Positions 31,091 through 47,141 of a stretch of DNA of 64,000 nucleotides are shown here, piece by piece. The notes beneath the pieces were generated by a model. It worked only from the letters and a program-made list of their open reading frames with translations, was not told the DNA's origin and did not search any database. Positions within the stretch are counted from its first letter, which is position 1. The number at the start of each line of letters is the position of its first letter. Source of the DNA: Anaerolineaceae bacterium (GTDB lineage: Bacteria; Chloroflexota; Anaerolineae; Aggregatilineales; Phototrophicaceae). The translations under genes and the position numbers were made by a program. The stretch spans positions 1-64,000 of the forward strand of contig WGMX01000018.1 in assembly GCA_016124855.1 (NCBI GenBank). Reading direction: 5' to 3'.

Positions 31091-33874
31091 ATGGTCACAC
31101 TGACAAAACCCGTTGCTAATAAAAAGCAAGTTGATGGACAAAAAACTGCTCCGCCCAAGCGATGGGTTTATTTATTTGATCAAGTCGAACAAGCCGAAAA
31201 AGAAGTCGGCGGCAAATGGGACAATGTACGCGCCCTGCTTGGCGGTAAAGGTTCTGGTTTGGCGGACATGACCCGCACGGGCGTTCCCGTTCCACCCGGA
31301 TTTACCATCACCACGCAAGCCTGTAACGCTTATCTGGCTGAAGGCGGAAAATTCCCGGCGGGAATGTGGGATCAGGTGCTAGAAGCACTTCAAACGGTTG
31401 AAAAACAATCCGGTAAGAGCTTCGGTAACGTCAAGAATCCACTGCTCGTTTCAGTTCGTTCCGGCGCAAAGTTTTCTATGCCCGGTATGATGGACACCGT
31501 TCTCAACTTGGGTCTTAACGACAAAATTGCGGAAAGCATGGTCGAATTAACCGGCGATGCTCGTTTTGTCTATGACGCCTATCGTCGCTTGGTTCAAATG
31601 TTTGGTTCCGTCGTGATGGGTATTCCAGATGAACCATTTGAAGAATATCTGACTGAAACTAAGAAAGAACGGAAAGTCAAATCAGATGTTGACCTCAATG
31701 CCCAAGATTGGCAGCAGGTCACCAAGCATTTCAAAGCCCTGTACAAGCAATATGTCGGCGATGAATTCCCACAGGATCCGCTCGTTCAAATGGAACATGC
31801 CATTGAAGCCGTATTCAAGTCATGGAACGGCAAACGCGCCATAGATTACCGCAATGCCGCTGGAATTTCTCACAAGTTGGGAACTGCCGTCAACATCCAG
31901 ACCATGGTTTTTGGCAACATGGGTTCTGACTCTGGAACAGGTGTGGCCTTCACCCGCAACCCCTCGACCGGTGAAAAGAAGCTGTTTGGCGATTTCCTGA
32001 TGAACGCGCAGGGCGAAGACGTAGTCGCCGGTATTCGCACGCCCGAACCAATCGCCCAACTCGAACGCGAAAATCCGGCTATTTTCGCTCAATTTGCCGA
32101 TGTAGTATCCAAATTAGAAAAACACTATCGCGAAATGCAAGATGTCGAGTTCACAATTGAAAAAGGCAAATTGTGGATGCTCCAAACTCGCGATGGCAAA
32201 CGGACCGCTCGCGCTGCTGTCCGAATCGCAGTTGAGATGTTTGAAGAGGGCGTCATCAGCAAAGAAGAAGCAGTCCTACGCATTTCACCGCAGCATGTAC
32301 TCCAATTGCTGCATCCACAGTTCGATATTGATGAGAAAGCTCATGCTGAAAAAGCCAATCAAATGGTTGGTAAAGGTGTAAATGCTTCACCCGGTGCCGC
32401 CGTAGGTGTCGTCGCGTTTGACGCAGACGTTGCCGAGAAGTGGGGCAAAGCTGGCAAGGCTGTCATCATGGTTCGCCCTGAAACCAAACCTGATGACGTT
32501 CATGGTATGTTGGCCTCTAAAGGAATTCTGACCAGTCGTGGTGGAGCGACCAGCCACGCCGCTGTTGTCGCCCGTCAATTCGGCGTACCGTGTGTCTGCG
32601 GTGCGGAAATGCTGGACATTGATGTTCGGGGTCGGGTGATGAAGGTTAATGAAATTGAAGTTCATGAAGGCGATACCATTTCAATTGATGGTGGCACCGG
32701 TGAAGTTTTCATTGGTGAAATCAAACGAGTGGAACCCGACTTTGCCCGTGAAACCTATCTGCGTAAGCTCCTAGGCTGGGCTGATGACTTCCGCCGTTTG
32801 GGGGTTTACGCCAATGCCGACTATCCCAACGATGCCCGTCGCGCTCGTGAATACGGCGCTGAAGGTGTTGGCCTGTGCCGTACCGAGCATATGTTCTTCC
32901 AACAGGAGCGCCTCCCTATTGTTCAGGCTATGATCCTCTCCGAGCCAAATAGCAAGGAAGAGAAAGATAATCTGGATAAGTTAGAGGTATTCCAACACGA
33001 TGACTTCTACGGCATTTTCAAAGCGATGGAAGGTCAACCGGTTATCATCCGCTTACTCGATCCACCGCTGCATGAGTTTATGCCTACGCACGAGCAATTG
33101 GCACTACGTGCTGCCGGTCTTCGTTTGATGAATGATCGCCCGAACGAACTACAACGCGTTGAAGAGTTGATGACCGCTGTTGAAGGTCTACAGGAATTCA
33201 ATCCAATGCTCGGTTTGCGTGGAAGCCGTCTGGGTATTATGCGTCCGGCCATCAGTGAAATGCAGGCCCGGGCGTTATTTGAAGCGGCGTGCCAATTAAC
33301 TTTAGAGGGCGTCGAAGTGCATCCTGAAATTATGGTTGCCGTGACCAACCACCCGAACGAAGTGAAGTTCATGCGCAACTTAGTCGAGCGAATTGGTGAA
33401 GAAGTTACGGCGAAATACAACGTTAATCTGGAATACAAAGTCGGTACGATGATTGAACTGCCCCGCGCAGCAATTGTTGCCGACCAAATGGCCGAGTACT
33501 CTGAATTCTTCTCATTCGGAACAAACGACTTGACCCAAACGACCTTCGGAATCAGCCGCGATGATGCCGAGGGCAAATTCTTGCTGAATTACGTTGAAAC
33601 CGGTATGCTGCCTGAGAATCCGTTCCAAGTTTTAGATGAGAGTGGCGTAGGCTTTTTGATTAGATTAGCCGTTGAAAAGGGTCGCAGAGCCCGTCCCTCA
33701 TTAGAAGTCGGCATCTGTGGTGAACATGGTGGTGATCCAAAGAGTATCCATTTCTGCCACGACGCAGGTTTGAACTACGTCAGTTGTTCGCCCTTCCGTG
33801 TACCCGTTGCCCGTCTTTCAGCCGCACACGCTGCGCTAAAAGACCAAGGGGTAAAGATCAAAGAAGACAAATAA
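31091..33874 (+). CDS. ppdK: Pyruvate, phosphate dikinase
   Basis: Interconverts pyruvate + ATP + phosphate and PEP + AMP + PPi. 927 residues, slightly longer than the usual ~875-890 because of an N-terminal extension (about 20 residues) and internal loops. The N-terminal ATP-grasp part has LLGGKGSGLADMTRTGVPVPPGFTI. The swivelling phospho-His domain carries LTSRGGATSHAAVVARQ. The C-terminal TIM barrel has GVGLCRTEHMFF, SFGTNDLTQTTFG and the CGEHGGDPKSIHF segment with the catalytic Cys. The ATG at 31091 has GGGAG about 9 nt upstream. Placed after NifJ, it links acetyl-CoA/pyruvate to PEP for gluconeogenesis or PPi-based glycolysis. Confidence 0.97.
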   Translation: MVTLTKPVANKKQVDGQKTAPPKRWVYLFDQVEQAEKEVGGKWDNVRALLGGKGSGLADMTRTGVPVPPGFTITTQACNAYLAEGGKFPAGMWDQVLEALQTVEKQSGKSFGNVKNPLLVSVRSGAKFSMPGMMDTVLNLGLNDKIAESMVELTGDARFVYDAYRRLVQMFGSVVMGIPDEPFEEYLTETKKERKVKSDVDLNAQDWQQVTKHFKALYKQYVGDEFPQDPLVQMEHAIEAVFKSWNGKRAIDYRNAAGISHKLGTAVNIQTMVFGNMGSDSGTGVAFTRNPSTGEKKLFGDFLMNAQGEDVVAGIRTPEPIAQLERENPAIFAQFADVVSKLEKHYREMQDVEFTIEKGKLWMLQTRDGKRTARAAVRIAVEMFEEGVISKEEAVLRISPQHVLQLLHPQFDIDEKAHAEKANQMVGKGVNASPGAAVGVVAFDADVAEKWGKAGKAVIMVRPETKPDDVHGMLASKGILTSRGGATSHAAVVARQFGVPCVCGAEMLDIDVRGRVMKVNEIEVHEGDTISIDGGTGEVFIGEIKRVEPDFARETYLRKLLGWADDFRRLGVYANADYPNDARRAREYGAEGVGLCRTEHMFFQQERLPIVQAMILSEPNSKEEKDNLDKLEVFQHDDFYGIFKAMEGQPVIIRLLDPPLHEFMPTHEQLALRAAGLRLMNDRPNELQRVEELMTAVEGLQEFNPMLGLRGSRLGIMRPAISEMQARALFEAACQLTLEGVEVHPEIMVAVTNHPNEVKFMRNLVERIGEEVTAKYNVNLEYKVGTMIELPRAAIVADQMAEYSEFFSFGTNDLTQTTFGISRDDAEGKFLLNYVETGMLPENPFQVLDESGVGFLIRLAVEKGRRARPSLEVGICGEHGGDPKSIHFCHDAGLNYVSCSPFRVPVARLSAAHAALKDQGVKIKEDK

Positions 33875-33929
33875 CATCTATCTTTGAACTTGGGGGCTAT
33901 GCTGCGACAGAGCGATAACCCTCCCGAAG

Positions 33930-33969
33930 CACAAAGGATCATCGTTTTGATGATCCTTTGTGCTTTTCG
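33930..33969 (+). terminator. Strong rho-independent terminator after ppdK
   Basis: A perfect 16-bp stem (AGCACAAAGGATCATC and its complement, loop GTTTT) is followed by TTTT. It lies about 55 bp after the ppdK stop. Confidence 0.9.
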
Positions 33970-34083
33970 GTGTATGTCTTGGACACAGCGAAATTTTGGG
34001 CTGCACAAGTTTATGAAATGATAAACGGACCAACCCAATCACTTCAACCTTCGATCCCAAACAACCAGTAATGTGATGAAGAC

Positions 34084-35328
34084 TTACAGTTGTCTGTTAT
34101 TGATCGCTTGAACTGCTTTTTCAAAACACTCAAGAGGTGCTCGTACGCGTCCCGCACCGATCTGACCAATACCCGGTTTTTTATGTGCAATTCCGGTAGT
34201 GATATATGGACGAATACCTGTTTCGATGACCTTAAAAATATCGACGCCGGTAGGCGTGCCGCGCCCATTCAGAATTGGCAGCTTAAAAAGGCTTCCTTCA
34301 CTTATGGTGAGATTATACATTTCCAACATTGCCTGCATCAGTATGTCCGGTGTTCCGCCGATAAAATCGGTAATAGCAGGCGCGCCCCCGACGGCAAAAC
34401 CACCTAAGCCGCTTGCTTCGGTAATGGCACTATCGCCAATATCCAAGTTAGCATCGTCAGCCGTAAACTGGGGAAAATAATGGCCATCGACTACCGGAGA
34501 TGGAGCCGCAAACCACTGCCCTTGAACACGTATACTAAACTCTACTCCGTTGCGCGAAAAAGCTGTTACCAGACTCGAATGGGGAACTGCTTCTGCCTTA
34601 AGCCAAGCCGCTTTACAAGATGCCATAGTCAGATTAAGGAAAAAATAATCCTTACCACGAATAAAACTGATGACCTCATCAATCTCTGCACTGCTCAGGG
34701 AGGTTTTGAGTAATCCTGATGTGAGTGTTTGCAATAATAAGACTAATGCAGCATGGTTACGGCTATGACACTCGTCACCCATTTCAACCGCCTCCGCCAC
34801 CATTGGGAAAATCGGTATTTCACCCAGTCGTAGAACCGTTTCGCGCAGTCGGGGCGCAAGTATGTCACGCATCCAATTTAGGTTGGCTATAACAGAAGGG
34901 TTGTTCGCTCCATAGCGCAGCGTTGCTCCCGAACCTTCGTTTAAATTGCTGTAAGCACGGGTTCCATTAACCGCGTCTTCAACTACCCAAACTGGCATGG
35001 ACGGTGATATAACACCTGCCATCGGCGCGACAGAATCGTGATTATGATTAGGTGCAAACCGTATAGCCCCACTATCACACAGCTTACGAGCCTCATCTAG
35101 GGTCGTCGCCCGTCCTTCGTAAACTACTGCACCTAGAACCGCACCCTGCATCGGCCCGCACATGTTTTGCCATTCAATCGGTGGCCCCGCGTGCAAAATC
35201 ATATCGTCATTCATACCGGGTATAACGTCACGTGCGGTTTGAATATCAATCACTCTCGGTTGTGCCTGATTAAAAATCTGAAGCACTTGGCGGTTTGCAG
35301 TTTCACGTTGGTCAATTGAGGGGTTCAA
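34084..35328 (-). CDS. DUF1116 / AllG-like protein
   Basis: A protein of the DUF1116 (YlbE/AllG) family; in E. coli AllG is a subunit of oxamate carbamoyltransferase with AllF (FdrA) and AllH. Family landmarks seen: VIPGMNDDMILHAGPPI near the N-terminus, CGPMQGAVLGAVVYEG, FAPNHNHDSVAPMAGVISPSM, EMGDECHSRNHAALVLL and a C-terminal GRGTPTGVDIFKVIETGI. The start is put at TTG 35328, preceded by AGGA at 8 nt; an ATG at 35361 would add 11 atypical residues. About 414 residues. It is divergent from the hydrolase genes. No fdrA or allH/DUF2877 gene is beside it, so the complex would need subunits encoded elsewhere. Confidence 0.85.
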   Translation of the reverse strand: MNPSIDQRETANRQVLQIFNQAQPRVIDIQTARDVIPGMNDDMILHAGPPIEWQNMCGPMQGAVLGAVVYEGRATTLDEARKLCDSGAIRFAPNHNHDSVAPMAGVISPSMPVWVVEDAVNGTRAYSNLNEGSGATLRYGANNPSVIANLNWMRDILAPRLRETVLRLGEIPIFPMVAEAVEMGDECHSRNHAALVLLLQTLTSGLLKTSLSSAEIDEVISFIRGKDYFFLNLTMASCKAAWLKAEAVPHSSLVTAFSRNGVEFSIRVQGQWFAAPSPVVDGHYFPQFTADDANLDIGDSAITEASGLGGFAVGGAPAITDFIGGTPDILMQAMLEMYNLTISEGSLFKLPILNGRGTPTGVDIFKVIETGIRPYITTGIAHKKPGIGQIGAGRVRAPLECFEKAVQAINNRQL

Positions 35329-35506
35329 TTTACAAATCCTAACGACGAAAAAAGACATCATAAATGTATTAGGCCATCAATTCATCTGCTATAGACATAT
35401 TGCTATAGGATTCCATTGAAAATTTGTGGCAATCCAGCCAATTCGATGTTTTATGTTATGCGTTCTACTAGCATGTCTATCCTATCGAAACCAAAAGTGA
35501 AAAATT

Positions 35507-35896
35507 ATGGCCTTTGAATTATTTGTAAACGGTACCCTGATGCGCGGTTTGAAACTTCATGCCAATATGGGTAACTCAGTCTTCATGGGCGAATTCCGCA
35601 CTACCCCTTTTTATAGGGTATATACCATTAATGATATACACCCCGGCATGTACCGCGTGAATGATGGCGAAACAGGTGGCGCTGCAATATGGGGCGAATT
35701 ATACCAAGTTGAAGACGACGTATGGAAAGCTATTGAAGCAGGAGAACCGCCGAACTTGTATCGCGGCATGGTCGAGCTTGAAGACGGACGGACAGTTTAC
35801 GGCATTCTGTATCCCCGTGAACTAGCTGAAGGTCACTATCCCGAAATTACCGCATTTGGCGGCTGGCGCGCCTATATGGATTCAAAGACGAAATGA
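35507..35896 (+). CDS. Stand-alone allophanate-hydrolase C-terminal-like domain
   Basis: 129 residues of gamma-glutamylcyclotransferase/AIG2-like fold. It starts FELFVNGTLMRGLKL, has the TTPFYRVYTI strand and a G-G-AIWGELY segment, and ends YPEITAFGGWRAYM. The FGGWRAY ending is the signature of the C-terminal domain of allophanate hydrolases (AtzF-type), which processes the N-carboxycarbamate intermediate. Here that domain stands alone, without the amidase domain. It ends 7 bp before the first cysteine hydrolase, so the two are co-transcribed. A role in breaking down ureide or biuret products is inferred. Confidence 0.8.
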   Translation: MAFELFVNGTLMRGLKLHANMGNSVFMGEFRTTPFYRVYTINDIHPGMYRVNDGETGGAAIWGELYQVEDDVWKAIEAGEPPNLYRGMVELEDGRTVYGILYPRELAEGHYPEITAFGGWRAYMDSKTK

Positions 35897-35903
35897 GGAC
35901 ATT

Positions 35904-36569
35904 GTGCTAACGGTAAAAGCGACACCTTATGATTTCACGTTCGATCCAACAAATACGGCACTGGTCATCATTGACATGCAGCGTGATTTTTTGGAACCTG
36001 GTGGCTTTGGCGAACTATTGGGTAATGATGTGTCGCAGCTTCGTACGGCAATTGCGCCACTTCAAACCGTACTCAACACGGTTCGTGCTAAACAGATGAT
36101 GGTCATTCACACCCGTGAGGGCCATCGTCCCGATCTAGCTGATTTGCCCGAAGCCAAACGCACCCGTGGCAACTTAAGCTGTGGCATTGGCGACGCAGGG
36201 CCGATGGGGCGCATTTTAATTCGTGGTGAAGCAGGACACGAAATTATCGACGAACTCAAACCTATTGCCGGTGAACCGATCATCGACAAACCCGGCAAAG
36301 GCAGCTTTCACGCGACTGATCTGGAATCGATTCTCAAAAATCACAACATAAAGCAGTTGATTGTGACCGGTGTAACAACCGAGGTTTGTGTACATACTAC
36401 TGTGCGGGAAGCAAATGATCGCGGTTATGAGTGCCTCGTCCTTTCAGATTGTGTGGCCTCGTATTTTCCAGAATTTCAAGCGGTCGGTTTGAAGATGATC
36501 GCTGCACAAGGGGGAATATTCGGCTGGGTTGCACCTTCGTCTGCCTTGCTGGAGGCATTGTCGATTTAA
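35904..36569 (+). CDS. Isochorismatase-family cysteine hydrolase (biuret hydrolase-like) 1
   Basis: The start is GTG 35904, with GAGGA 5 nt upstream; a longer frame from 35856 would overlap the preceding gene. Catalytic triad positions are visible: Asp24 (VIIDMQRDFLEPGG), Lys129 (IDKPGKGSFHATDL) and Cys162 (VTGVTTEVCVHTT). The family includes biuret hydrolase, RutB and N-carbamoylsarcosine amidase, which release ammonia from ureido groups. HTREGHRPDLADLP and QGGIFGWV are close to biuret-hydrolase-type members. About 222 residues, the usual size. It is paralogous to the next gene, from which it differs in the lid region. Confidence 0.88.
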   Translation: MLTVKATPYDFTFDPTNTALVIIDMQRDFLEPGGFGELLGNDVSQLRTAIAPLQTVLNTVRAKQMMVIHTREGHRPDLADLPEAKRTRGNLSCGIGDAGPMGRILIRGEAGHEIIDELKPIAGEPIIDKPGKGSFHATDLESILKNHNIKQLIVTGVTTEVCVHTTVREANDRGYECLVLSDCVASYFPEFQAVGLKMIAAQGGIFGWVAPSSALLEALSI

Positions 36570-36759
36570 ACAACCTTTCTTGTACTTTCTGCACAGTCGG
36601 ATTACCGCTTGTATTGAATGCACAAATTTATCCAATAAATCTGCAAGTCTTTCAATATAGGTTTTGGTTTTCGGCATTTCCATAATCTGCCCAATTACTG
36701 TCTATTACGAAAATAACTATCGTATTGATAGTTTACTGCCATTTCGTTTGGAGATGCCT

Positions 36760-37458
36760 ATGGGTACAACCGCGTCGATGTCTGGTAGAGTGCGGGTTGA
36801 GGCCGACCCTTATACGTATGCTTTCGACCCTGAACATACTGCCGTTGTAATCATAGATATGCAGGCGGATTTCTGCGGCAAGGGCGGTTATGTTGACAAA
36901 ATGGGTTATGACATTTCGCTGACGGCCTGTGCCATTGAACCGATTAAGCGGGTGCTGGTAAAAGCACGCGAAATTGGCATGACGGTCATCCATACCCGCG
37001 AAGGTCACCGCCCTGATCTGTCGGACTGTCCACCGAATAAGCTGTGGCGGAGCAAACAAATCGGCGCAGGAATTGGTGATCTCGGCCCACTCGGACGGAT
37101 TCTTGTACGTGGCGAGGCCGGTTGGGACATTATCCCCGAACTTTATCCCATAGATGGCGAAGTGATTATTGATAAGCCCGGTAAAGGCAGCTTTTACGCG
37201 ACTGACCTCGACTTAGTCCTGCATCGTAAGGGCATTACCCACCTGATTTTGACAGGCATCACCACTGACGTATGCGTCCATACCACCATGCGCGATGCCA
37301 ATGACCGTGGTTACGAGTGTCTGTTGCTGGAAGATTGCACAGGCGCAACAGATGTCGGGAATTACGCCAGTGCTATCAAGATGGTCAAGATGCAAGGTGG
37401 CGTATTCGGGACAGTTTCACACTCCGAAAAGCTCATTGAGTCACTCAATCAAATATAA
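36760..37458 (+). CDS. Isochorismatase-family cysteine hydrolase (biuret hydrolase-like) 2
   Basis: The start is set at ATG 36760 (MGTTASMSGR), 6 nt after GGAG; upstream in-frame starts lack a site. The triad is Asp33 (VIIDMQADFCGKGGY), Lys139 (IDKPGKGSFYATDL) and Cys172 (LTGITTDVCVHTT), and the C-terminal MVKMQGGVFGTV carries the Gln found in biuret-hydrolase-like enzymes. 233 residues. It is clearly related to the previous hydrolase, so the cluster has two enzymes for similar amide bonds in sequence or for two substrates. The importer ATPase begins 24 bp downstream. Confidence 0.88.
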   Translation: MGTTASMSGRVRVEADPYTYAFDPEHTAVVIIDMQADFCGKGGYVDKMGYDISLTACAIEPIKRVLVKAREIGMTVIHTREGHRPDLSDCPPNKLWRSKQIGAGIGDLGPLGRILVRGEAGWDIIPELYPIDGEVIIDKPGKGSFYATDLDLVLHRKGITHLILTGITTDVCVHTTMRDANDRGYECLLLEDCTGATDVGNYASAIKMVKMQGGVFGTVSHSEKLIESLNQI

Positions 37459-37482
37459 CAGTAACGATTGGAGCAACGACGT

Positions 37483-39009
37483 ATGGCAGAATTCATCGAG
37501 CTGGAAGGCATTAGTAAAACCTTTCCCGGCCTAAAAGCTAATGAAGATGTCAACCTCAAGATAAAAAAGGCTCAGGTTCACGCCCTATTGGGAGAAAATG
37601 GCGCGGGCAAAAGTACGCTTATGAAAGTGCTTTATGGTTCATATCGGGCTGACTCCGGCACAATTAAAGTCGATGGTCAGGCGGTCACGATCAACAGTCC
37701 TGCTGATGCGCGTGCCGTCGGCATCGGCATGGTGTTTCAAAGTTTCATGTTGATACCAGCTTTTACCGTCACAGAAAATATTGCACTTAGTCTCAAGGAA
37801 TTAGGGCTGGTTATTGACAAAAAGGAAATTGAAAAAGGCATCCGGGAGATATCTGACAAATATAACTTTGATGTCGATCCAAATGCTTACGTATGGCAGC
37901 TCTCGCTTGGAACTCAACAAAAAGTCGAAATTATCAAACTGGTGATGGGCGGCGCTAGGTTGTTAATTTTTGATGAACCCACCAGCGTCCTTGCACCGCA
38001 TGAAGCCGAAGGTTTATTCAAGATTTTTGACGGTCTGCGCGCTAATGGTTACTCGATCATCTTTATTTCGCATAAACTCAATGAAGTCTTGGCCTGTTCC
38101 GACGAAATTACTGTTCTGCGCCGTGGAAAAGTCGTAGGAACCATCTCACGCGCTGAAGCTAATGAAGAAGTTTTAGTATCGATGATTATTGGGGCAAAGA
38201 TGGCAAGCAGTCGCGAATATGCCCGCAAGCCCTTAGCGCTTGACCGCAAACCGATACTCCAACTCAAAGACATTGTGGCTAACAATGACCGCGAACGCAT
38301 AGCCCTCGACAACATGAACCTGACAATTTATGCCGGTGAAATTTTGGGTATCGCCGGTGTATCTGGTAACGGACAGAAAGAACTTGGAGAGGTTATTCAG
38401 CGGCTTCGCCTAATTAAATCCGGTTCCATCCATTTTGACGGGCAAGAAATCACCCAGTTAAGCGTGTCCAGAGTCAAGCAAGCAGGCATTGCTTGCATTC
38501 CCGAAGATCCACTGCGGCAGGGAGCAGTCGGAACGATGACTGTTGAGGAAAATCTCGCGCTGGGCGACGAGAGTTCCAAGGATTGGCTGCCGATGAATTG
38601 GGAAACTGCCCGCGCAAAAGCCAGCTACATTACTGACCACTTCCATCTCAAAATGCCTCGCTTAAATGTACCGATACAGGCTTTATCTGGCGGTAACGTT
38701 CAGCGGATTGTGTTTGCGCGCGAGATGGCCGCAAATGCCAAACTGCTGCTGGCTTACTATCCCACACGTGGAACAGACATTAATGCGGCGGAAATTATCC
38801 GTACGGTACTGCTCAATTATCGGAACGCTGGCGGAACCATATTATTGGTTTCGGAGGACTTAACTGAACTTCTGTCTATTAGTGACCGATTAATTGTGAT
38901 GTATCACGGTCGCAACGTCGGTGAATGCCAGCCCGAAAACGCTGACATTAACGAAATCGGCCATTTAATGACAGATGGCAAATATGCGGCTCATGGACAG
39001 GTAGCATAA
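37483..39009 (+). CDS. BMP-type ABC importer, double ATP-binding subunit
   Basis: The start is ATG 37483 (MAEFIELEGISKTF) after GGAGCAACG. Two fused ABC domains of the sugar/nucleoside class: domain 1 has Walker A GENGAGKST, a Q-loop with VFQSFMLIPAFTVTENI, LSLGTQQKVEI as signature and LLIFDEPTSVL; domain 2 has a degenerate Walker A (GVSGNGQKEL), LSGGNVQRIVFAREM and LLAYYPTRGTD. A degenerate second site is normal in this class. About 508 residues. It works with two permeases and a BMP-family binding protein downstream. The adjacent hydrolases suggest import of a ureide or purine-breakdown compound rather than a nucleoside. Confidence 0.93.
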   Translation: MAEFIELEGISKTFPGLKANEDVNLKIKKAQVHALLGENGAGKSTLMKVLYGSYRADSGTIKVDGQAVTINSPADARAVGIGMVFQSFMLIPAFTVTENIALSLKELGLVIDKKEIEKGIREISDKYNFDVDPNAYVWQLSLGTQQKVEIIKLVMGGARLLIFDEPTSVLAPHEAEGLFKIFDGLRANGYSIIFISHKLNEVLACSDEITVLRRGKVVGTISRAEANEEVLVSMIIGAKMASSREYARKPLALDRKPILQLKDIVANNDRERIALDNMNLTIYAGEILGIAGVSGNGQKELGEVIQRLRLIKSGSIHFDGQEITQLSVSRVKQAGIACIPEDPLRQGAVGTMTVEENLALGDESSKDWLPMNWETARAKASYITDHFHLKMPRLNVPIQALSGGNVQRIVFAREMAANAKLLLAYYPTRGTDINAAEIIRTVLLNYRNAGGTILLVSEDLTELLSISDRLIVMYHGRNVGECQPENADINEIGHLMTDGKYAAHGQVA

Positions 39010-39022
39010 AGGGGGCAAAGGT

Positions 39023-40141
39023 ATGGCAATCGTAAATGCGGAAGATACTTCTATACCACAACCGGCGGAGATAACCGTACTGCCGATAGCACTGCCTGAA
39101 AAAACGGGGATTCCGAAATGGGCGAGAGGCATCGGTGCATTCCTGCTGTCAATCTTAATGGCAATGGTCGTGTTTGGAGCTATTTTACTGCTGCTGGGCA
39201 AGAATCCGGTTGATGTTTATACCAGTATATTGAAGGGGACACTCGGCAGTACATACGGTTTGAGCGAAATCGTCGTCAAGATGATACCGTTCATTCTATG
39301 TGCGTTAGCTGTCGCTATTCCCGCACAACTCGGGCTCATCACCGTTGGTGGGGAAGGCCAGATATATATTGGCGCAATCTTCGCGGGCTTTGTCGCGCTC
39401 CAATTAGGTGATTCCGTATCTACGCCCATCCTCATTCCACTGCTTGTAATCGCAGGTATGCTCGGTGGTGCGTTGTGGGGCGGCCTGTGCGGCGTGCTGC
39501 GAGCCTATTTGAACCTGAATGAAACGATTTCGTCGCTGCTGCTCACCTACATTGCCAGCTTAACGATGGACTTTTTGGTGAGTGGACCGCTCAAAGATCA
39601 TTCACGAATGGCACAAGGGCAAGCCTACAGCCCCAATTTCCCTGCCAATGCTATGCTACCCACCTTCTTTGATACCCGAATTAGTTTAGGCATAGTTTTC
39701 GCACTAGCGGGTGTCGTCTTCTATTTCTGGTTGTTTAAATATACGCGCTGGGGCTACAAGATGCGGGTGGTGGGTGGAAATCCTGAAGCAGCCATTCGCA
39801 GTGGCATCAAAATTGGTCGTTACATTGTGATCGCGATGATGCTTGGAGGCGCATTCGCTGGTCTTAGCGGCATGATTGAGGTCATCGCAATTCAGGGGCG
39901 CTTACGTGGTGGAATATCGAATGGCTATGGCTACGTGGGATTTTTAGTGGCTTGGCTAGCAGCGCAGCGACCGGGTGGGATTGTATTCATGGCGGCGCTA
40001 CTCGGACTGATTTCATTTGGCGGGGATACATTGCAGTTTGCCAACAACCTTCCGGCATCGACTGTGAATATCTTGATGGCTCTCATCCTGTTTTTTGTCT
40101 TACGCAATCAAGGGCTTCGCGCCCGGCAGGAGAAATCGTAG
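39023..40141 (+). CDS. BMP-type ABC importer permease 1
   Basis: 372 residues with about nine membrane segments after a 35-residue cytoplasmic N-terminus. GLITVGGEGQIYIGAIFAGFVAL and LNLNETISSLLLTYIA match the BPD_transp_2 family (YufP/NupB-like). The motif GGNPEAAIRSGI (EAA-like loop) for ATPase contact lies at about 250. It starts 13 bp after the ATPase and its stop abuts the start of permease 2. Confidence 0.92.
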   Translation: MAIVNAEDTSIPQPAEITVLPIALPEKTGIPKWARGIGAFLLSILMAMVVFGAILLLLGKNPVDVYTSILKGTLGSTYGLSEIVVKMIPFILCALAVAIPAQLGLITVGGEGQIYIGAIFAGFVALQLGDSVSTPILIPLLVIAGMLGGALWGGLCGVLRAYLNLNETISSLLLTYIASLTMDFLVSGPLKDHSRMAQGQAYSPNFPANAMLPTFFDTRISLGIVFALAGVVFYFWLFKYTRWGYKMRVVGGNPEAAIRSGIKIGRYIVIAMMLGGAFAGLSGMIEVIAIQGRLRGGISNGYGYVGFLVAWLAAQRPGGIVFMAALLGLISFGGDTLQFANNLPASTVNILMALILFFVLRNQGLRARQEKS

Positions 40142-41062
40142 ATGGATCCAATACTTTTTATCCAATTGATCCTGACGGGTTCGATTCGTTCCGGAACTTC
40201 CGTTTTGTATGCTGTGCTGGGCGAAACTGTCAGCGAAAAAGTAGGCGTGGTCAATCTTGGTACCGAAGGTTGCATGCTCATGGGAGCGTGCGCCGGATTT
40301 ATTATTACCTATCAGACCGGCAATCCTTGGTTGGGTGTTTTGGTCGCCGGATTGGCAGGTGGTTTGCTCAGTTTGGCCCATGCCTATTTGGTGATTAGCT
40401 GTGGTGCGAACCAGCTTGCCAGCGGACTTGCAATGCTTTTTCTAGGATTGGGACTGACCGCACTTCTCGGGCGCGACTATGTAAAAGTCAGTATAGAGGG
40501 ATTTAATCCAATTCCGATACCATTTCTCTCCACGATTCCGTTCATCGGAAAAATCCTTTTCAACCACGATATTATGACCTACGTGGGCTTCTTAATCGGG
40601 CCCGCGTTATGGTTCTTGATGTACCGCACCCGATGGGGGCTTTCAATACGAGCCGTCGGTGAAAGCCGTGCCGTTGCCTTTTCGACGGGGCGCAATCCAG
40701 TACGTATTGCGTATATGGGGGTGTTCATCGGTGGAATTCTTGCCGGACTGGGAGGCGCGCAATTGTCTATTGCGTTTACGCACTTCTGGGTCGAAAACAT
40801 GACACAAGGTGCAGGCTTCATCGCAGTCGCATTGGTTATCTTTGCTATGTGGCATCCTATCCGCGCCATCGCCGGTGCTTTACTCTATGGCGGCGCTTAT
40901 TCACTTCAACTTACCCTTCAAACGATGGGGGTCGGCATCCCGCCTGCCCTACTCCAGATGGTGCCCTACGTCCTCACGCTAATTGTTCTGTTGGCATGGA
41001 GTAAGGCTAGCAAACGAGCCATGCCTGCGGAGCTGGGAAAGGCTTTTGGAGCGCAAACTTAA
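40142..41062 (+). CDS. BMP-type ABC importer permease 2
   Basis: 306 residues with about eight to nine membrane segments. SEKVGVVNLGTEGCMLMGAC near the N-terminus and the cytoplasmic loop GESRAVAFSTGRNPVRIAYMG are typical of the second permease (YufQ/NupC-like). The ATG follows the stop of permease 1 directly. It forms the translocation pore with permease 1. Confidence 0.92.
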   Translation: MDPILFIQLILTGSIRSGTSVLYAVLGETVSEKVGVVNLGTEGCMLMGACAGFIITYQTGNPWLGVLVAGLAGGLLSLAHAYLVISCGANQLASGLAMLFLGLGLTALLGRDYVKVSIEGFNPIPIPFLSTIPFIGKILFNHDIMTYVGFLIGPALWFLMYRTRWGLSIRAVGESRAVAFSTGRNPVRIAYMGVFIGGILAGLGGAQLSIAFTHFWVENMTQGAGFIAVALVIFAMWHPIRAIAGALLYGGAYSLQLTLQTMGVGIPPALLQMVPYVLTLIVLLAWSKASKRAMPAELGKAFGAQT

Positions 41063-41160
41063 GCGCAGCGAGCAGCAAGACTGATTTCTCAGAGTGATTT
41101 GTAGCAATACATTCACTCGACTCTTTATCACGGTTTCTCTATGAAAGGATATGATGTTCT

Positions 41161-42369
41161 ATGTTCCGCCCTTTTAAACGCGCAAAGTTTTTCCTGAGTA
41201 GTTGTCTTATTTTGTCATTTGCAATGCTCACGCTTGCGCCTATGGTCGCTGCTCAGGACGCGACTGCAGAAGCCACGATGGCAGCGGATAGTCTTCCTGC
41301 CGAGTGTGGCAACACGCCCGGTACAATCCGTGATTTAGCAGCCCAAATTAAAGCTGACCCGACAAAATCGGTCAAAATTGGATTTCTATTTGTTGGTCCT
41401 GTAGACGACTTCGGCTATAACTACGCCGCGAATCAAGGTCGTTTGTGCCTCGAAGCGGTTTATCCCGGCAGCACCGTTTATGCCGAAAATGTCCCCGAAA
41501 GTGCCGAGGCTGAACGCGTCATGGAGAATATGATTCAGGCTCAAGGTGTTTCCATTATTTTCCCGACCAGCTACGGCCATTATGATCCGGCAACACAGGT
41601 CGCCAAGAAATATCCGAACGTCACATTCTTCCATATGGGTGGGCCGGCTGAAGTTCCGCCGAACCTCGGCACTTTCTTTGGTGACATCTGGCAAATGGTC
41701 TATGTCTCTGGGTTTACAGCAGGAAAGATGACCAAAACAGGGAAACTAGGCTATATAGTTGCATTCCCGATTTCGCAAACACTGCTCAATGTCAACGCTT
41801 TTGAACTCGGCGCAAAGGCTGCCAACCCGAACGCAACGACTACAGTCGTGTTTACAGGCAGTTGGTGCGATCCCGCAAAGCTTTCGGCAGCGTCCAATAA
41901 CCTTGTAGATCAAGGTATTGATGTACTGACCATGCATCAAGACTGCCCGAAACCAGTCATTGAAGTGGCTGATCGTCGCGGGGTATATGTCGTTGGATAT
42001 CATGCGGATGGCAGTAGTGTTGCCCCGAAGGCGTGGCTTACAGGCTCCATGTGGGTTTGGGGGCCGACCATGCTGATGCTGACAGATCAGGCCATTAATG
42101 GCAAATATACACCGTCGGTGTTGTTCTACGGCCCCAAGGAAGGCATAGTTGATCTAGCTCCGTTCGGAACTGAAGTTCCACAAGATGTACAGGATGCGAC
42201 GCTGGCACTCAAAGCACAGGTCATTTCTGGAGAAGTATTCCCCTTCACCGGCCCGGTAAAAAATCAGAATGGTGATGTTGTGATCGCTGATGGTGAAAAA
42301 CCTGATGAAGCAACACTTCAATCTATGGATTATCTAGTTGAAGGCGTAGTTGGAACACTGCCTCAATAA
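41161..42369 (+). CDS. BMP-family substrate-binding protein
   Basis: 402 residues with a Sec signal peptide (LSFAMLTLAPMVAAQ) and a short Ala/Thr linker, then the BMP fold: VKIGFLFVGPVDDFGYNYAANQGR, IIFPTSYGHYDPATQVAKKYPNVTFFHMGG and GKLGYIVAFPISQTLLNVNAFELGAKAANP. TGSWCDPAKLSAASNNLVDQGIDVLTMHQDCP and VVGYHADGSSVAPKAWLTG are typical of the urea-derivative/purine-type BMP subgroup. AAAGGA lies upstream of the ATG. It captures the substrate outside the membrane for the three preceding components. Confidence 0.93.
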   Translation: MFRPFKRAKFFLSSCLILSFAMLTLAPMVAAQDATAEATMAADSLPAECGNTPGTIRDLAAQIKADPTKSVKIGFLFVGPVDDFGYNYAANQGRLCLEAVYPGSTVYAENVPESAEAERVMENMIQAQGVSIIFPTSYGHYDPATQVAKKYPNVTFFHMGGPAEVPPNLGTFFGDIWQMVYVSGFTAGKMTKTGKLGYIVAFPISQTLLNVNAFELGAKAANPNATTTVVFTGSWCDPAKLSAASNNLVDQGIDVLTMHQDCPKPVIEVADRRGVYVVGYHADGSSVAPKAWLTGSMWVWGPTMLMLTDQAINGKYTPSVLFYGPKEGIVDLAPFGTEVPQDVQDATLALKAQVISGEVFPFTGPVKNQNGDVVIADGEKPDEATLQSMDYLVEGVVGTLPQ

Positions 42370-42390
42370 CAACTAATTGAATTGGACAAT

Positions 42391-42429
42391 ACGTGACAGT
42401 GCCGTACAGATCATATGGCACTGTCATGT
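42391..42429 (+). terminator. Hairpin after the BMP operon
   Basis: A stem of about 13 bp around TGACAGTGCC/GGCACTGTCA with a 13-nt loop lies 21 bp after the last stop. It lacks a T-run, so termination may need other factors. The remaining bases up to 42711 hold no gene; they should contain the promoter of the next gene. Confidence 0.6.
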
Positions 42430-42711
42430 TCAAGAAACTTCGACTCTTTCGTCAATTCCCCTTATCGAGATTCGCTCTTCACGCGCTGCTTGAAATCTCC
42501 AAAACATTACTGCTCCATTTTGCCAGTCAAAGAGCGCAACTTTTTTTCTCAGATTGATTAAAAACGCTAGTCTCGACGTGGCTAAATAATCGGTATGAGT
42601 TAAACTGAGATTGTGATCCTTTTTCGCTCTAATGGGTTTTGTAAATTATTTGAACTGAGGGAGGTGACACCCGGAACCTAACCCGTACTTATTATTGATG
42701 GAGCAATTAAT

Positions 42712-43683
42712 ATGCGCTTTTTGAGGACGTTTATACTGATTGTACTTTTTGGGGGAATGGTTGTTGCTGTAGTCCACGCCCAAGATAACGTAGGCGTAGG
42801 TAAAAAGCTAACGATTGGTTTTTCGCAAGTTGGTTCGGAAAGCGATTGGCGTACAGAATTTACGCGGGTAATCAAAGCTGAGGCACAAGAGCGTGGCATT
42901 AATCTACTGTTCCTAAACGCAGAAAATAGTCAAAAAAACCAAATAAACGCGATCCGTTACTTTATTGCTCAACATGTAGATGCCATTATTCTTGCCCCAG
43001 TCATTGAAACTGGTTGGGATCAAATACTTCATGAAGCTAAAGACGCCGGCATTCCGGTGGTCATTATAGATCGTAACGTAACGGCTGATGAATCGCTATA
43101 TTTGACCCGTGTATCTTCAGATTTCGTCTATGAAGGGCGTTTAGCCGCCGCATGGCTTGCCCAAGCAACAGCGGGCAGGAAATGTGAGATTGTAGAATTA
43201 GAAGGAACGGTTGGTTCTAGTGCTGCGCGTGATCGTCAAATTGGGTTTAATGATGTCATTAAGTATTTTCCAGATATGCAGGTCATTGTTTCGCAGTCGG
43301 GGGATTTTATAAGGGAGAACGGTAAAAAAATTATGGAAAGCATCCTTAAAACTGAAAATCCATCCGACATTTGCGCGGTTTGGGCCCATAACGACGATAT
43401 GGCGATTGGCGCCATTCAGGCGATTAAGGATGCTGGAATGAAGCCCGGCAAAGATATTCTGATTGTTTCCGTTGATGCCATTCCCGATATTTTCAAAGCC
43501 ATGGCTGATGGTGAGGCGAATGCAACCATTGAACTTAGTCCTTATTTAGGCGGGCCGGCATTTGACGCCATCATATCATATTTACAAGGACACGAGATAC
43601 CTAAATGGATTCCAGTTACGGGGAAAATCTATTTTCCTGATACCGCGGCAGCAGAATATGCAAAGCGCAAACAACAATCTTAA
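42712..43683 (+). CDS. Sugar ABC substrate-binding protein (YtfQ-like), orphan copy
   Basis: 323 residues with a signal peptide (FILIVLFGGMVVAVVHAQ) and a periplasmic-binding-protein type 1 fold: LTIGFSQVGSESDWRTEF, DAIILAPVIETGWDQIL, VVIIDRNV and VWAHNDDMAIGAIQAIKDAG. SQVGSESDWR and the EGRLAAAWLA segment match galactofuranose-type YtfQ proteins. GGAG lies about 8 nt before the ATG. It has no transporter genes directly after it but is strongly similar to the binding protein at 46035, so it may feed the same importer with a different sugar. Confidence 0.9.
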   Translation: MRFLRTFILIVLFGGMVVAVVHAQDNVGVGKKLTIGFSQVGSESDWRTEFTRVIKAEAQERGINLLFLNAENSQKNQINAIRYFIAQHVDAIILAPVIETGWDQILHEAKDAGIPVVIIDRNVTADESLYLTRVSSDFVYEGRLAAAWLAQATAGRKCEIVELEGTVGSSAARDRQIGFNDVIKYFPDMQVIVSQSGDFIRENGKKIMESILKTENPSDICAVWAHNDDMAIGAIQAIKDAGMKPGKDILIVSVDAIPDIFKAMADGEANATIELSPYLGGPAFDAIISYLQGHEIPKWIPVTGKIYFPDTAAAEYAKRKQQS

Positions 43684-43810
43684 GACGATTCCTAGCCTTG
43701 CTGCTAAACCATTGGGGCATAATTCTGTTACTTATCCCGGTTCATTTATTCGACTTATTTTCTAAAATAGAACATTGAGCACTGCCTAATACGATAGATG
43801 AGGAAGTTCT

Positions 43811-44833
43811 GTGCCAAAGTCCAAAGCTACGCGTCCTACATTATTGGATGTTGCTGAAATGTCCGGCGTCTCGTACCAGACTGTATCACGAGTAATTAAT
43901 AACCACCCTTATGTATCGGATGACGCACGACAACGAGTCGAAGTTGCGATAGAAGCATTAGGCTACCGCCCCAATAAGGTAGCAACTAAATTACGGTCAA
44001 AGTCATCCAAGACAATCGCCATTATCCTCTTTGGGAGCTGGTTTCATGGGCCGGTTCAAATTGCGCTTAATGTTGAAATGGCAGCGCGAACAAACGGCTA
44101 TGATGTCATCTTGATGAATGTGACCGACACTCAGGTTCAGGTGGTCAAAGCCCTTCAACATGTTAACGGTTGGGATATTGAAGGACTCATCATGATCATT
44201 CCTGCCCAAAGTGTCCCTATGGAAGAAATACGTTCCATATGTGGTGATATTCCGATTGTTCATATTGATTCGCATACTTCGACTGAAGTCCCATCGGTAG
44301 CACTAGATGAGGCTTATGGAACAGAACAAGTGATTGAACATTTGATTTCGCTAGGGCACACGCAGTTCTGTGAAATTAGCGGCCCACTTAATTGGGTTAG
44401 CGCTCAAATTCGGCACGAGACATGTATCCAAGTTTTTAGAAAACACGGCCTCGAATTACCTATACACGTCGAAGGCAATTGGACAACGCCGGGGGGATAT
44501 CAGGCGATGCGACGGTTATTAGATGCCAAGCATCCATTTACGGCGGTGATTTCGGCTAATGATAATATGGCCTTTGGCGCAATGAGAGCTTTAGAGCAGC
44601 ACGGATTAAGTGTACCTAAGGATATCTCTCTGGTTGGATTTGATGACATTCCCGAAGCGGCTTACCTGTCTCCACCACTTACTACAGTCCGGCATAATTA
44701 CATTCAGCTTGGTATCGTGGGTTTTGAGTATTTGCTCCAGCTAATTGATGAACACGATGCTCCTATCCGGCAGCGGCTTATCACTCCCCGTTTGATTATT
44801 CGCGAAAGCACAATGCCAGTCTCCAAGTCCTAG
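43811..44833 (+). CDS. LacI-family transcriptional regulator
   Basis: 340 residues from a GTG at 43811 with AGGAAG upstream. The N-terminal HTH and hinge are canonical (TLLDVAEMSGVSYQTVSRVINN, then YRPNKVATKLRSKSSKTIAI), followed by a sugar-binding effector domain (ISANDNMAFGAMRALEQHGL, VGFDDIPEAAYLSPPLTTVR). It lies between two YtfQ-like binding-protein genes and upstream of the importer. The palindromic operator at 45601 is its likely target, and the transported sugar its likely inducer. Confidence 0.93.
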   Translation: MPKSKATRPTLLDVAEMSGVSYQTVSRVINNHPYVSDDARQRVEVAIEALGYRPNKVATKLRSKSSKTIAIILFGSWFHGPVQIALNVEMAARTNGYDVILMNVTDTQVQVVKALQHVNGWDIEGLIMIIPAQSVPMEEIRSICGDIPIVHIDSHTSTEVPSVALDEAYGTEQVIEHLISLGHTQFCEISGPLNWVSAQIRHETCIQVFRKHGLELPIHVEGNWTTPGGYQAMRRLLDAKHPFTAVISANDNMAFGAMRALEQHGLSVPKDISLVGFDDIPEAAYLSPPLTTVRHNYIQLGIVGFEYLLQLIDEHDAPIRQRLITPRLIIRESTMPVSKS

Positions 44834-44914
44834 AAGTTCAAACAGAAATTGATGAAGGTTAACCTCTACAAATCTCTTCGCCTTTAAAATTGATAAACCT
44901 ATTCTGCTGAAACT

Positions 44915-45066
44915 GCACAATTTGCAGTAATTCCGCCAAATTGACTGGCGGATGGCTCGGCTAACAGCGCTGAATTGACATTTTGTGTTGGCGGGACGAT
45001 CACTTAATGCCACCGAGTCGACACAGGTTCGGCGGGATTTTCGGTTACTGCCACCGCGTTGCAATT
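44915..45066. repeat. Dispersed intergenic repeat, copy A
   Basis: About 152 bp that align with 61711-61863. Twenty-two bases are identical (44967-44988 against 61764-61785), and much of the flank matches with scattered changes (for example GCGGGACG, AATGCCAC, TGCCACCGC, GCAATT). On the minus strand both copies can be read as a peptide with SVALS-RPA-TKCQFSA. Whether that is coding or chance is unclear. Confidence 0.75.
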
Positions 45067-45444
45067 GTGGCATTTGCATAGCGGAGATAAGCGGGAAAGC
45101 CGCCGAAAATACATGGACGGATACGGATTAACCACAAAGAGACAAAGAACGAAAAGAACATGTAGAGAAGCAGGTTGGATAGCATTAAGTGGTGGAGTCT
45201 AGAATTTCCATGTTCCTCTACCCTAAATCCCACATCAGCAACGTTAGCAGACGGACAATCATTGCACAAGTTCAGATTGTCCGTTATCACTCTGCTGATA
45301 GACGCTGCGCAGCGAGGGGACTTCATGCGGACAGGTCTGGGACGTGTCCCTACGAAATCAGGTGTTTAAGGAACACGGTGCTATAAAAATTACTCTCCAC
45401 GGTTTAGTGGGATGCTACCCGAGTAGAATTCCTCCCTCATTATA

Positions 45445-45456
45445 GAACAAACGTTC
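45445..45456. promoter_or_regulatory. LexA-like box (GAAC-N4-GTTC)
   Basis: GAACAAACGTTC fits the Gram-positive-type SOS box consensus. It is not close to a gene start and lies in the shared repeat block, so it may be part of the repeat instead of a working operator. Confidence 0.3.
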
Positions 45457-45570
45457 ATTACAAGCAAGCAATTTTGGTTCGAGTTTCCAAACTTTTGGAT
45501 AGTTTCTAAGTCAAAATCTGCCTAGAACCGAGGCCCAAAAGATTCAATACATTTTTCCTTGAGCAATTTC

Positions 45571-45599
45571 TTGACTTTTCTACAAATATGCGACATTAT
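45571..45599 (+). promoter_or_regulatory. Sigma-70-type promoter of the sugar-importer operon
   Basis: A -35 box TTGACT (45571-45576), a 17-bp spacer and a -10 box CATTAT (45594-45599). The operator palindrome begins 2 bp downstream, at the expected transcription start. The leader to the binding-protein start at 46035 would be about 425 nt long and holds no recognised gene. Confidence 0.65.
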
Positions 45600-45600
45600 A

Positions 45601-45618
45601 TGTGTGAACGTTCACACA
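45601..45618. promoter_or_regulatory. Palindromic LacI-type operator
   Basis: TGTGTGAACGTTCACACA is a perfect 18-bp palindrome with the central CG typical of LacI-family operators. It overlaps the predicted transcription start of the operon. The LacI regulator encoded 0.8 kb upstream is the likely ligand-controlled repressor. Confidence 0.7.
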
Positions 45619-46034
45619 CGGAGGTGCTGTTCACGCAGGTTAATATATATCTTTGGGAATTGTGATACTAAAGCTTAATTAATTTTGCTGCCTCAAAATT
45701 ACACTTGAATTCATAAATATCTGGTTATGGTAGCAATATTTAACGTTATTACTTTCACTCGATAAGCTGATTAATCCGCAATTCCACTGAAAAACTATCC
45801 TGTCGCGTTATTTTCCTAACCATCTTCGCAACATTAGGAGATGGTCTAGTTTTTGTTTGCCCCTTAGCGGGGAATGAATACGAATATCAGGCATGAGGGC
45901 CATCAGCTTGATAACGTAGATTGCATAACGGGTTGCCATTCTTGGCGAAAGGAGGCTCGATTCAGACGGAAACATTAACACATCACAAAAATCGAAAGTT
46001 TCAGGTTCGTATTTACTATTTAAGGAGTGTTACG

Positions 46035-46994
46035 ATGCGGTTTTTAAGAGCAAGTCTTATGGTTGTGTTACTGCTGGTGCTATCGCTGACCGCAGTTCAT
46101 GCACAAGACAAGAAATTGACGGTTGGCTTCGCCCAGACTGGTTCAGAAAGTGGATGGCGCACAGCATTTACTAATGCGATGAAGGCTGAGGCGGAAAAGG
46201 AAGGAATCGACTTAAAGTTCAGTGATGGTCAACAAAAGCAGGAAGTCCAGATTGCGGCGCTGCGTTCATTCATCGCCCAACAAGTTGACGCTATCTTGCT
46301 GGCTCCTATCGTTGAAACAGGCTGGGACGCCGTTTTAAAGGAAGCACAAGACGCGAATATCCCTGTGATTTTGGTTGACCGGGGTGTGAGCGCCGATCCC
46401 TCTCTATATGTTACCAGAGTGGCGGCGGACTTCAACCACGAAGGTCGTTTGGCTGCTGCATGGCTGGCGCAGGCGACACTTGGTGAATGCAATATTGTGG
46501 AAATTCAAGGTACTGTTGGCTCGAGCGCCGCGCTTGACCGCATGAAGGGTTTTGGTGAAGTGATTGCCCTCTTCCCCGGAATGAAGATTGTCGCGACTCA
46601 AGTTGGTGATTTCACCCGTGATGGCGGCAAAAAGGTTATGGAAGGTTACATCAAGTCACTGGATGGTCTCAAGGATGTCTGCGCTATTTGGGCGCACAAC
46701 GATGACATGCTCCTCGGTGCAATCCAAGCCTTGAAGGAAGCCGGTATTAAATCCGGTAAAGATGGCATCAAGACCATCTCCGTGGACGGCGTGTGTGATA
46801 TGTTCAAGGCTATGGCGGATGGGGATGCTAGCGCTAACGTAACGCTGCTCCCGGACTTGGGGCCAATCGCTTACCAAGCGGTGCGCGATACGCTTGCCGG
46901 GAAGCCGGTTGAGAAACGTATCGTTATGCCCAGCCCGATGAACTTCCCTGACACAGCGGCAGAACAATATGCCAAGTGCAGTGCAGCTTCATAA
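46035..46994 (+). CDS. ytfQ: Sugar ABC substrate-binding protein (YtfQ-like)
   Basis: The start is ATG 46035 (MRFLRASLMV) with AAGGAG about 9 nt upstream; the frame is open further up but without support. A signal peptide (VVLLLVLSLTAVHAQ) precedes the type-1 periplasmic binding fold: LTVGFAQTGSESGWRTAF, DAILLAPIVETGWDAVL, VTRVAADFNHEGRLAAAWLA and IWAHNDDMLLGAIQALKEAG. These match the galactofuranose-binding YtfQ family. It is first in the importer operon, followed by the ATPase and two permeases in YtfQRT-YjfF order. It is a close paralogue of 42712-43683. Confidence 0.92.
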   Translation: MRFLRASLMVVLLLVLSLTAVHAQDKKLTVGFAQTGSESGWRTAFTNAMKAEAEKEGIDLKFSDGQQKQEVQIAALRSFIAQQVDAILLAPIVETGWDAVLKEAQDANIPVILVDRGVSADPSLYVTRVAADFNHEGRLAAAWLAQATLGECNIVEIQGTVGSSAALDRMKGFGEVIALFPGMKIVATQVGDFTRDGGKKVMEGYIKSLDGLKDVCAIWAHNDDMLLGAIQALKEAGIKSGKDGIKTISVDGVCDMFKAMADGDASANVTLLPDLGPIAYQAVRDTLAGKPVEKRIVMPSPMNFPDTAAEQYAKCSAAS

Positions 46995-47008
46995 GCTGTG
47001 CTGAAGTG

Positions 47009-47039
47009 GTGTGGGCACTCTGGCAAAGGGTGTCCACAC
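47009..47039 (+). terminator. Intra-operon hairpin after the binding-protein gene
   Basis: GTGTGGGCAC pairs with GTGTCCACAC (one mismatch, 11-nt loop) 15 bp after the stop, with no T-run. Such hairpins often protect the binding-protein mRNA and lower expression of downstream transporter genes. Confidence 0.45.
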
Positions 47040-47141
47040 CCATGTTACTCATTCGTTAAACGGGTTTTACAGCATCTAGGCAAACGGTGTTTATAACCCT
47101 TTTTACATCTTAACGGTTCATAAATATTGTTTTTGCAGTTG

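Follow-up and report, generated by a model that had tools for sequence, protein, structure and literature searches.

A probable variant triuret/biuret operon with a stand-alone AH_C protein and a lone AllG in an Anaerolineaceae genome

The first 64,000 nucleotides of contig WGMX01000018.1 from an Anaerolineaceae bacterium (assembly GCA_016124855.1), hereafter the window, carry a compact gene cluster for the salvage of ureides (Table 1). Judged by its gene content, the cluster is a variant of the triuret/biuret operon and neither an AtzF nor an AllFGH system, because the defining parts of both were looked for and not found. Two hydrolases, of TrtA and BiuH type, are accompanied by an importer of the ATP-binding cassette (ABC) class that is complete in its parts (a BMP binding protein, a double ATPase and two BPD_transp_2 permeases), by a protein consisting of an isolated AH_C domain, and by an isolated AllG. 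The reading that we judge moderately probable, taken as a whole, is that of a triuret/biuret salvage operon that ends in urea and urease, in which AH_C would be a ureide decarboxylase and AllG a self-standing ureide enzyme. A preceding sequence-only reading had described a ureide/biuret salvage cluster in which AH_C and AllG each stand isolated; the profile matches bear out this description, and all the genes it named are present where it placed them and are right in kind.

Both hydrolases have the isochorismatase fold and can be told apart by score and by residue. The first gives 281 bits to TrtA (PDB 6xix) versus 249 to 6azo, and the second 358 bits to 6azo versus 236 to 6xix; 6XIX is TrtA and 6AZQ is BiuH (PMC7948467), and 6azo was taken as belonging to the same protein series as 6AZQ. 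The BiuH equivalog model NF050097 (cut-off 370) is passed by the second hydrolase with 390.1 bits and failed by the first with 297. At the diagnostic positions, taken from PMC7948467, the first hydrolase (35904-36569) has the whole catalytic triad (D24, K129 and C162), the substrate residues E72, K132 and Q202, F29, and TrtA-type letters at five positions that separate TrtA from BiuH (F35, N41, E160, Y187 and I205); at the further position A134 it has S, and A134S is reported not to be deleterious in TrtA (PMC7948467). The second hydrolase (36754-37458) has the BiuH letters Y, Y, D, T and V at TrtA positions 35, 41, 160, 187 and 205. When 28 hydrolases from the window and fetched loci were sorted by these residues, 20 were of TrtA type and 8 of BiuH type, one of the latter (L122) keeping I at 205. 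The first hydrolase is most likely a triuret hydrolase type and not a second biuret hydrolase, and the second is assigned as BiuH by the equivalog model together with its residues, so that only one of the two biuret-hydrolase-like enzymes proposed earlier keeps that name. The chemistry of TrtA and BiuH has been published, with a half-life of about 20 min for carboxybiuret (PMC7948467). An unknown ureide, which the sequence-only reading had invoked, is not needed, since the cluster resembles published triuret/biuret operons in its TrtA, its BiuH and its BMP importer, and the signatures of the two enzymes point to triuret and biuret.

Operons of the order trtA-biuH-atzF are described in Herbaspirillum and Rhizobium (PMC7948467). 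Nitrifier contigs carry trtA, biuH and bmpA-nupABC side by side, and comammox bacteria have trtA-biuH-atzF-bmpA-nupABC with allFGHK alongside (PMC12625717); the same gene kinds are found on a K. pneumoniae plasmid. The cluster shares TrtA and BiuH with all these operons, and the BMP-type importer with those of the nitrifiers and of the K. pneumoniae plasmid. Unlike them, it has the AtzF C-terminal domain alone, with no amidase half found in the genome, and an added lone AllG. As in the comammox cluster, an AllG-family protein adjoins the triuret/biuret genes, but allFGHK and atzF are present there, whereas the window has AllG and AH_C only. Contigs with TrtA, BiuH and BMP genes, and adjoining allFGHK, are thus already in print (PMC12625717), and what remains unusual in the cluster is the lone AllG without AllF or AllH. 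Among the literature matches listed, with subscription journals mostly outside the scope, there was nothing on a lone AllG or on TrtA-AllFGHK-AH_C as a triuret module.

With a completeness of 97.7% and a contamination of 9.1%, the assembly makes gene absences strong but not final. In the whole assembly no amidase half of AtzF was found, fused or separate, the sole protein with the amidase signature (PF01425) being GatA (621 bits, cut-off 481); AllH (PF11392, DUF2877) gave no match, and the AllF profile scored at best 38.7 bits, against a frame of 292 aa interpreted as a putative succinyl-CoA-ligase-like protein. The amidase, FdrA/AllF and AllH that the sequence-only reading had missed in the cluster were thus not found in the rest of the assembly either. 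Its suggestion that separate proteins replace the fused AtzF fared less well: an AtzF split into two proteins was rejected, as the second half was not found in the assembly, and urea with urease is the more economical sink. Contig C30 encodes urease alpha (995 bits, cut-off 680), beta and gamma, UreD, UreF, a CobW/UreG-family protein and, over its cut-off, the urea-binding protein UrtA with adjoining ABC genes; a second PF00449 match, on contig C7, is weak (22.9 bits) and has an internal stop. Allophanate is reported to give urea, and carboxybiuret to give biuret, by spontaneous loss of CO2 (PMC6219798), and with this and the urease/UrtA locus the cluster would be workable without AtzF. A carbamate kinase, which the sequence-only reading had proposed to look for, is present on another contig than the cluster. 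Its locus (L102, contig C42, 6089-12162) contains an M20 peptidase, an OTCase-family carbamoyltransferase, the carbamate kinase and a threonine-synthase-like pyridoxal-phosphate enzyme, all within some 6 kb, where two further frames separate the M20 peptidase from the OTCase-family gene; the locus may resemble E. coli ygeW-ygeX-ygeY-yqeA.

In the scheme proposed, the BMP-type importer would take up ureides, and TrtA, assigned by its specificity residues, would convert triuret to carboxybiuret and ammonia. Carboxybiuret would lose CO2 to yield biuret, unaided or helped by AH_C; BiuH, assigned by the equivalog model, would turn biuret into allophanate and ammonia; allophanate would give urea and CO2, again unaided or through AH_C; and urea would be broken down to ammonia by the products of the urea transporter/urease locus on another contig, the genes of which are present and the flux through which is presumed. 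AH_C would act as an N-carboxy-ureide decarboxylase on free small molecules, not as the second domain of AtzF, a role proposed because no AtzF amidase was found and allophanate and carboxybiuret must lose CO2 in the scheme. The decarboxylase idea comes from work on the second (C-terminal) domain of AtzF. AllG, without AllF and AllH, would be a self-standing enzyme for the hydrolysis or phosphorolysis of the N-carbamoyl bond in allophanate or biuret, and this step is the least certain part of the scheme.

The AH_C protein (35507-35896) has no amidase domain, and its best PDB match is 5c5z. A phylum sample of 400 genomes contains 15 with PF21986, counting the window's own, and the gene context was examined in all 15. 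In 11 of these genomes TrtA is no farther than about 2.1 kb from AH_C; the same stretch has AllG in 10/15, AllK in 9/15 and AllF in 8/15, and the full set of AllF, AllG, AllK, TrtA and AH_C is together in 8/15. Seven of the eight full sets have the order AllF-AllG-AllK-TrtA-membrane protein-AH_C, and the exception (G225) has AllF-AllG after AH_C. Two AH_C-positive genomes (G193 and G376) carry AllG on other contigs, and in a third (G025) AllG is accompanied by an amidase fragment, TrtA being absent from the 11.5-kb contig. In the window's family, of which 98 genomes were searched, AH_C directly adjoins TrtA in all five AllG-positive genomes. A stand-alone AH_C is no novelty, being found repeatedly in the phylum sample and also in E. 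coli, for which a solved structure exists. A membrane protein encoded between TrtA and AH_C gave tblastn matches in 10/10 phylum-sample TrtA/AH_C stretches outside the window's family and none in L040, L105, L110 or L112, and its copy in L080 matches no Pfam or NCBIfam model. On a Terrarubrum plasmid (L119, 9031-15146), TrtA is followed by a membrane protein, AtzF, a DUF4089 protein, AtzE and HpxZ; the membrane protein, annotated ‘regulator’, is 51% identical to that of the TrtA/AH_C module in L080, and the plasmid may represent another wiring of carboxybiuret breakdown.

The AllG gene (34084-35361) is the sole PF06545 match in the genome and scores 360 bits to PDB 3clq. Its AlphaFold model (14 sequences, mean pLDDT 79) matches 3clq with Z 50 over 404 residues at 1.9 A, and beyond 3clq the other rows of the fold comparison have Z of at most 4.0, with no sign of a new fold. 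The oxamic transcarbamylase AllFGH of E. coli requires three genes for activity (PMC11326118); the window protein is 43% identical to its AllG subunit (K-12 YlbE) over 405 residues and keeps the near-invariant residues, but the E. coli enzyme has the AllF and AllH that the window genome lacks in our searches. In the phylum sample AllG is present in 71/400 genomes and AllF in 69/400 (E 1e-30), and four of the 71 AllG-positive genomes (G000, G025, G161 and G268) fall outside the AllF set. Rescoring of all candidates placed an AllF piece beside the contig-edge AllG of G161, and therefore three genomes with AllG and no AllF remain, of which G025 is 81% and G268 86% complete. In three relatives of the window's family (G436, G437 and G448), AH_C-TrtA is present as in the window, with BiuH in G436 and G448 and the ABC-BMP genes in G436, the one with a long enough contig (those of G448 and G437 stop after BiuH and TrtA, respectively); unlike the window, they have AllF-AllG-AllH in the divergent position. 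On the other hand, G449, of the same family and another genus, has a lone AllG divergent from AH_C-TrtA-BiuH-ABC-permeases-BMP, as in the window, and this operon order is kept in G436 as well. The best AllF match in G449 is 53.5 bits, of the CoA-ligase kind, and AllH was not searched genome-wide in it. The other 16 genomes listed under the window's own genus have no AllG in the family search (0/16).

Loss of AllF and AllH through an assembly gap was rejected, as the cluster lies inside its contig and G449 has the same arrangement without AllF; their presence elsewhere in the assembly was likewise rejected within the limits of its completeness. Near-invariant positions (41 columns) were those with a conservation of 97% or more among 79 AllG rows that were counted as AllF-linked; these rows are not independent, some being one gene fetched twice. 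The window AllG keeps 39/41 and that of G449 38/41; the least conserved AllF-linked row keeps 33/41 and six other rows without AllF nearby 26-35. The frame is intact over 425 codons. Between window and G449, AllG differs at amino-acid-changing sites (pN) by 0.24 and at silent sites (pS) by 0.82, the pN of TrtA, AH_C and BiuH being 0.22, 0.14 and 0.11. The two AllG form a clade with support 100/100 on a stem of 0.83, and forcing them into a clade with the AllG of G436, G437 and G448 was rejected (approximately unbiased test, p-AU 0.0005), in a test with 33 of 87 rows picked by hand and a group named after a quick tree, which long branches may affect. The possibility that the lone AllG is an in-place remnant of the family's own AllFGH was, with this caution, rejected. 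Because of the kept columns, pN versus pS, the 100/100 clade and p-AU 0.0005, the AllG of window and G449 looks like a distinct, constrained lineage and not a decaying leftover.

Other unusual settings of AllG were seen. In L035 (G268, contig C21; 6914-9554 and 16614-19335) two AllG paralogues with no AllF nearby each adjoin a long frame, that at 8166-9554 being glutamine-synthetase-like (Pfam), an arrangement that suggests a further AllG role. In L036 and L037 (G254 and G175) an AllG gene lies inside a BMP importer operon, flanked by the genes for the binding protein and for the ABC ATPase, and a second AllG with AllF is found elsewhere in both genomes. Six loci of acetic acid bacteria and Roseobacteraceae (L056-L061, about 9200-12500) have AllF followed by two tandem AllG. 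The apparent lone AllG of L005, L118 and L121 are artefacts, as AllF lies outside either the locus or the database that was used.

A related module is present in E. coli. In strain CFT073 the order is cysteine hydrolase (TrtA-type), DUF2877, FdrA, DUF1116, carbamate kinase, AH_C and cytosine permease (L105:16190-23403, CFT073 4528189-4535402; on a plasmid, L121:8983-16193). This module of extraintestinal pathogenic E. coli (ExPEC) and ColV plasmids resembles the window in its TrtA-type hydrolase (67% identical, with the same specificity residues), its stand-alone AH_C and its AllG (49% identical); unlike the window, it has AllFGHK complete, a cytosine-permease-like transporter in place of the BMP importer, and no BiuH in the locus. 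The 7.2-kb module used as a query matches 1547/5426 complete E. coli genomes, 1542 of them over at least 80% of its length, and 127/1616 match places are on plasmids. Compared by eye, the stretch in PDB 5c5z reads the same as the AH_C of the CFT073 locus, which we take to be c4763. That name fits the title of a crystal structure quoted in PMC7558591. A locus with the same five gene lengths, GR 29 of PMC12928451, has genes termed RutB-, CodB-, YqeA-, FdrA- and YahG-like, and pyrimidine nitrogen has been suggested for it. From its genes, the TrtA-type/AllHFGK/AH_C/cytosine permease module is a candidate for triuret utilisation in ExPEC and in Nissle 1917, which carries it. In six TrtA/AH_C modules (ExPEC, G040, G065, G153, G296 and G339) the AllG proteins group together with moderate support (92/88); a quick tree adds those of G195 and G357 to the group, but places those of G225, G193 and G436/G437/G448 apart from it. 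The grouping is compatible with, though no demonstration of, an AllFGH that acts in TrtA/AH_C modules on some ureide that is not oxalurate.

Several observations weigh against the reading of a salvage operon that ends in urease. All reactions of the scheme rest on sequence-based assignment or inference, the urease locus and the cluster are on different contigs, and the top NCBIfam names of the permeases and the binding protein are models of B6 importers, all below cut-off. AH_C-like proteins occur without TrtA or AllG neighbours in G053, G159 and G301 (partial in the last), and the 14-kDa C-terminal part of AtzF has been suggested to serve in oligomer assembly, the truncated enzyme being equally active (PMC3944691). 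For AllG only raw pN/pS can be given, and no dN/dS, because synonymous sites are saturated. Finally, AllFGH adjoins the same operon in G436-like relatives, so that a carbamoyltransferase may be the allophanate sink, a task that could fall to the lone AllG. On its own or with partners that escaped recognition, AllG would then consume allophanate or biuret by cleavage with phosphate to carbamoyl phosphate, from which carbamate kinase would make ATP, with no urease. The full sets in 8/15 AH_C-positive genomes suggest that an AllFGH-type carbamoyltransferase acts there on TrtA-derived products, and the same set in CFT073, the carbamate kinase of the window genome and the conserved residues of its AllG agree with this. 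However, all three of AllF, AllG and AllH are reported as necessary for the E. coli enzyme (PMC11326118), the window assembly yielded neither AllF nor AllH, and its carbamate kinase adjoins an OTCase-family gene in another cluster; we regard this route as unlikely in the window. Possible, if doubtful, is the broader proposal that AllG carries the active site of AllFGH and acts alone on allophanate or biuret, and that AllFGHK in TrtA/AH_C modules forms a phosphorolytic, ATP-yielding triuret pathway, in which TrtA would be followed by decarboxylation through AH_C, carbamoyl transfer to phosphate and carbamate kinase.

The long branch of the lone AllG, its divergence from the operon and the loss of its partners could also mean a relic, or a regulatory or binding role with no catalytic part. 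Such an outcome is improbable, as the frame is intact, amino-acid-changing differences are few relative to silent ones, and nearly all near-invariant columns are kept in two genera. Still more improbable is that the cluster acts on another ureide, such as a purine or pyrimidine breakdown product, with triuret and biuret as names of the nearest homologues only. The importer of the published operons is termed a nucleoside type (PMC12625717) and AllFGH is known for oxalurate (PMC11326118), but both enzymes carry the expected letters at the positions that tell TrtA from BiuH, apart from S at A134 of the window TrtA, and the published TrtA is described as ultraspecific for triuret (PMC7948467).

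It was not until 2024 that the oxamic transcarbamylase genes received names (PMC11326118), and in the parts of that paper covered the active site is not assigned to any subunit; its abstract, Discussion and one Results section contain no assay of AllG alone. A lone, conserved AllG would be a natural minimal version that makes the active-site question directly testable, and its retention hints that a single subunit of a three-part enzyme may work alone. From the recurrence of the TrtA-AllFGHK-AH_C set follows a concrete hypothesis for the substrate of the E. coli AH_C (PDB 5c5z) and of its locus in ExPEC and Nissle: triuret, instead of the RutB/pyrimidine suggestion of PMC12928451; triuret is present in human urine (PMC7948467). 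If true, an ATP-yielding triuret pathway would extend to a locus found in more than a quarter of complete E. coli genomes.

As for gene starts, that of the TrtA-type gene is most likely GTG 35904 and not TTG 35856, with AGGA upstream and the AH_C stop 7 bases before, and that of BiuH is likely ATG 36754 in an open reading frame that opens at TTG 36664. The region between the divergent genes is probably a promoter/operator region; it contains inverted repeats, including exact 8-nt arms at 35391-35398 and 35473-35480, which may be due to chance. A sigma-70 scan gave no site within 35362-35506, a promoter/terminator scan gave numbers no different from the shuffled-sequence range, and an Rfam search of 33500-43000 gave 0 matches.

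Table 1. Genes and intergenic region of the cluster in the window.
Feature	Position	Strand	Evidence or remark
Lone AllG (DUF1116)	34084..35361	-	PF06545, 266 bits (cut-off 27); divergent from operon
Intergenic region between divergent genes	35362..35506	.	145 bp
Stand-alone AH_C (AtzF C-terminal-like)	35507..35896	+	PF21986, 99.9 bits (cut-off 27); 129 aa
TrtA-type hydrolase (triuret), putative	35904..36569	+	281 bits to TrtA 6xix; residue signature
BiuH, biuret amidohydrolase, assigned	36754..37458	+	NF050097, 390.1 bits (cut-off 370)
ABC importer double ATPase domain	37468..39009	+	PF00005, two stretches
ABC importer permease 1	39023..40141	+	PF02653 (BPD_transp_2)
ABC importer permease 2	40142..41062	+	PF02653 (BPD_transp_2)
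BMP/PnrA-like substrate-binding protein	41161..42369	+	PF02608, 156 bits

Downstream of the cluster, the window (42712-50745) contains a YtfQ-like sugar-binding protein, below cut-off, followed, as read by eye, by genes for a LacI-like regulator, another binding protein and a sugar-type ABC importer.

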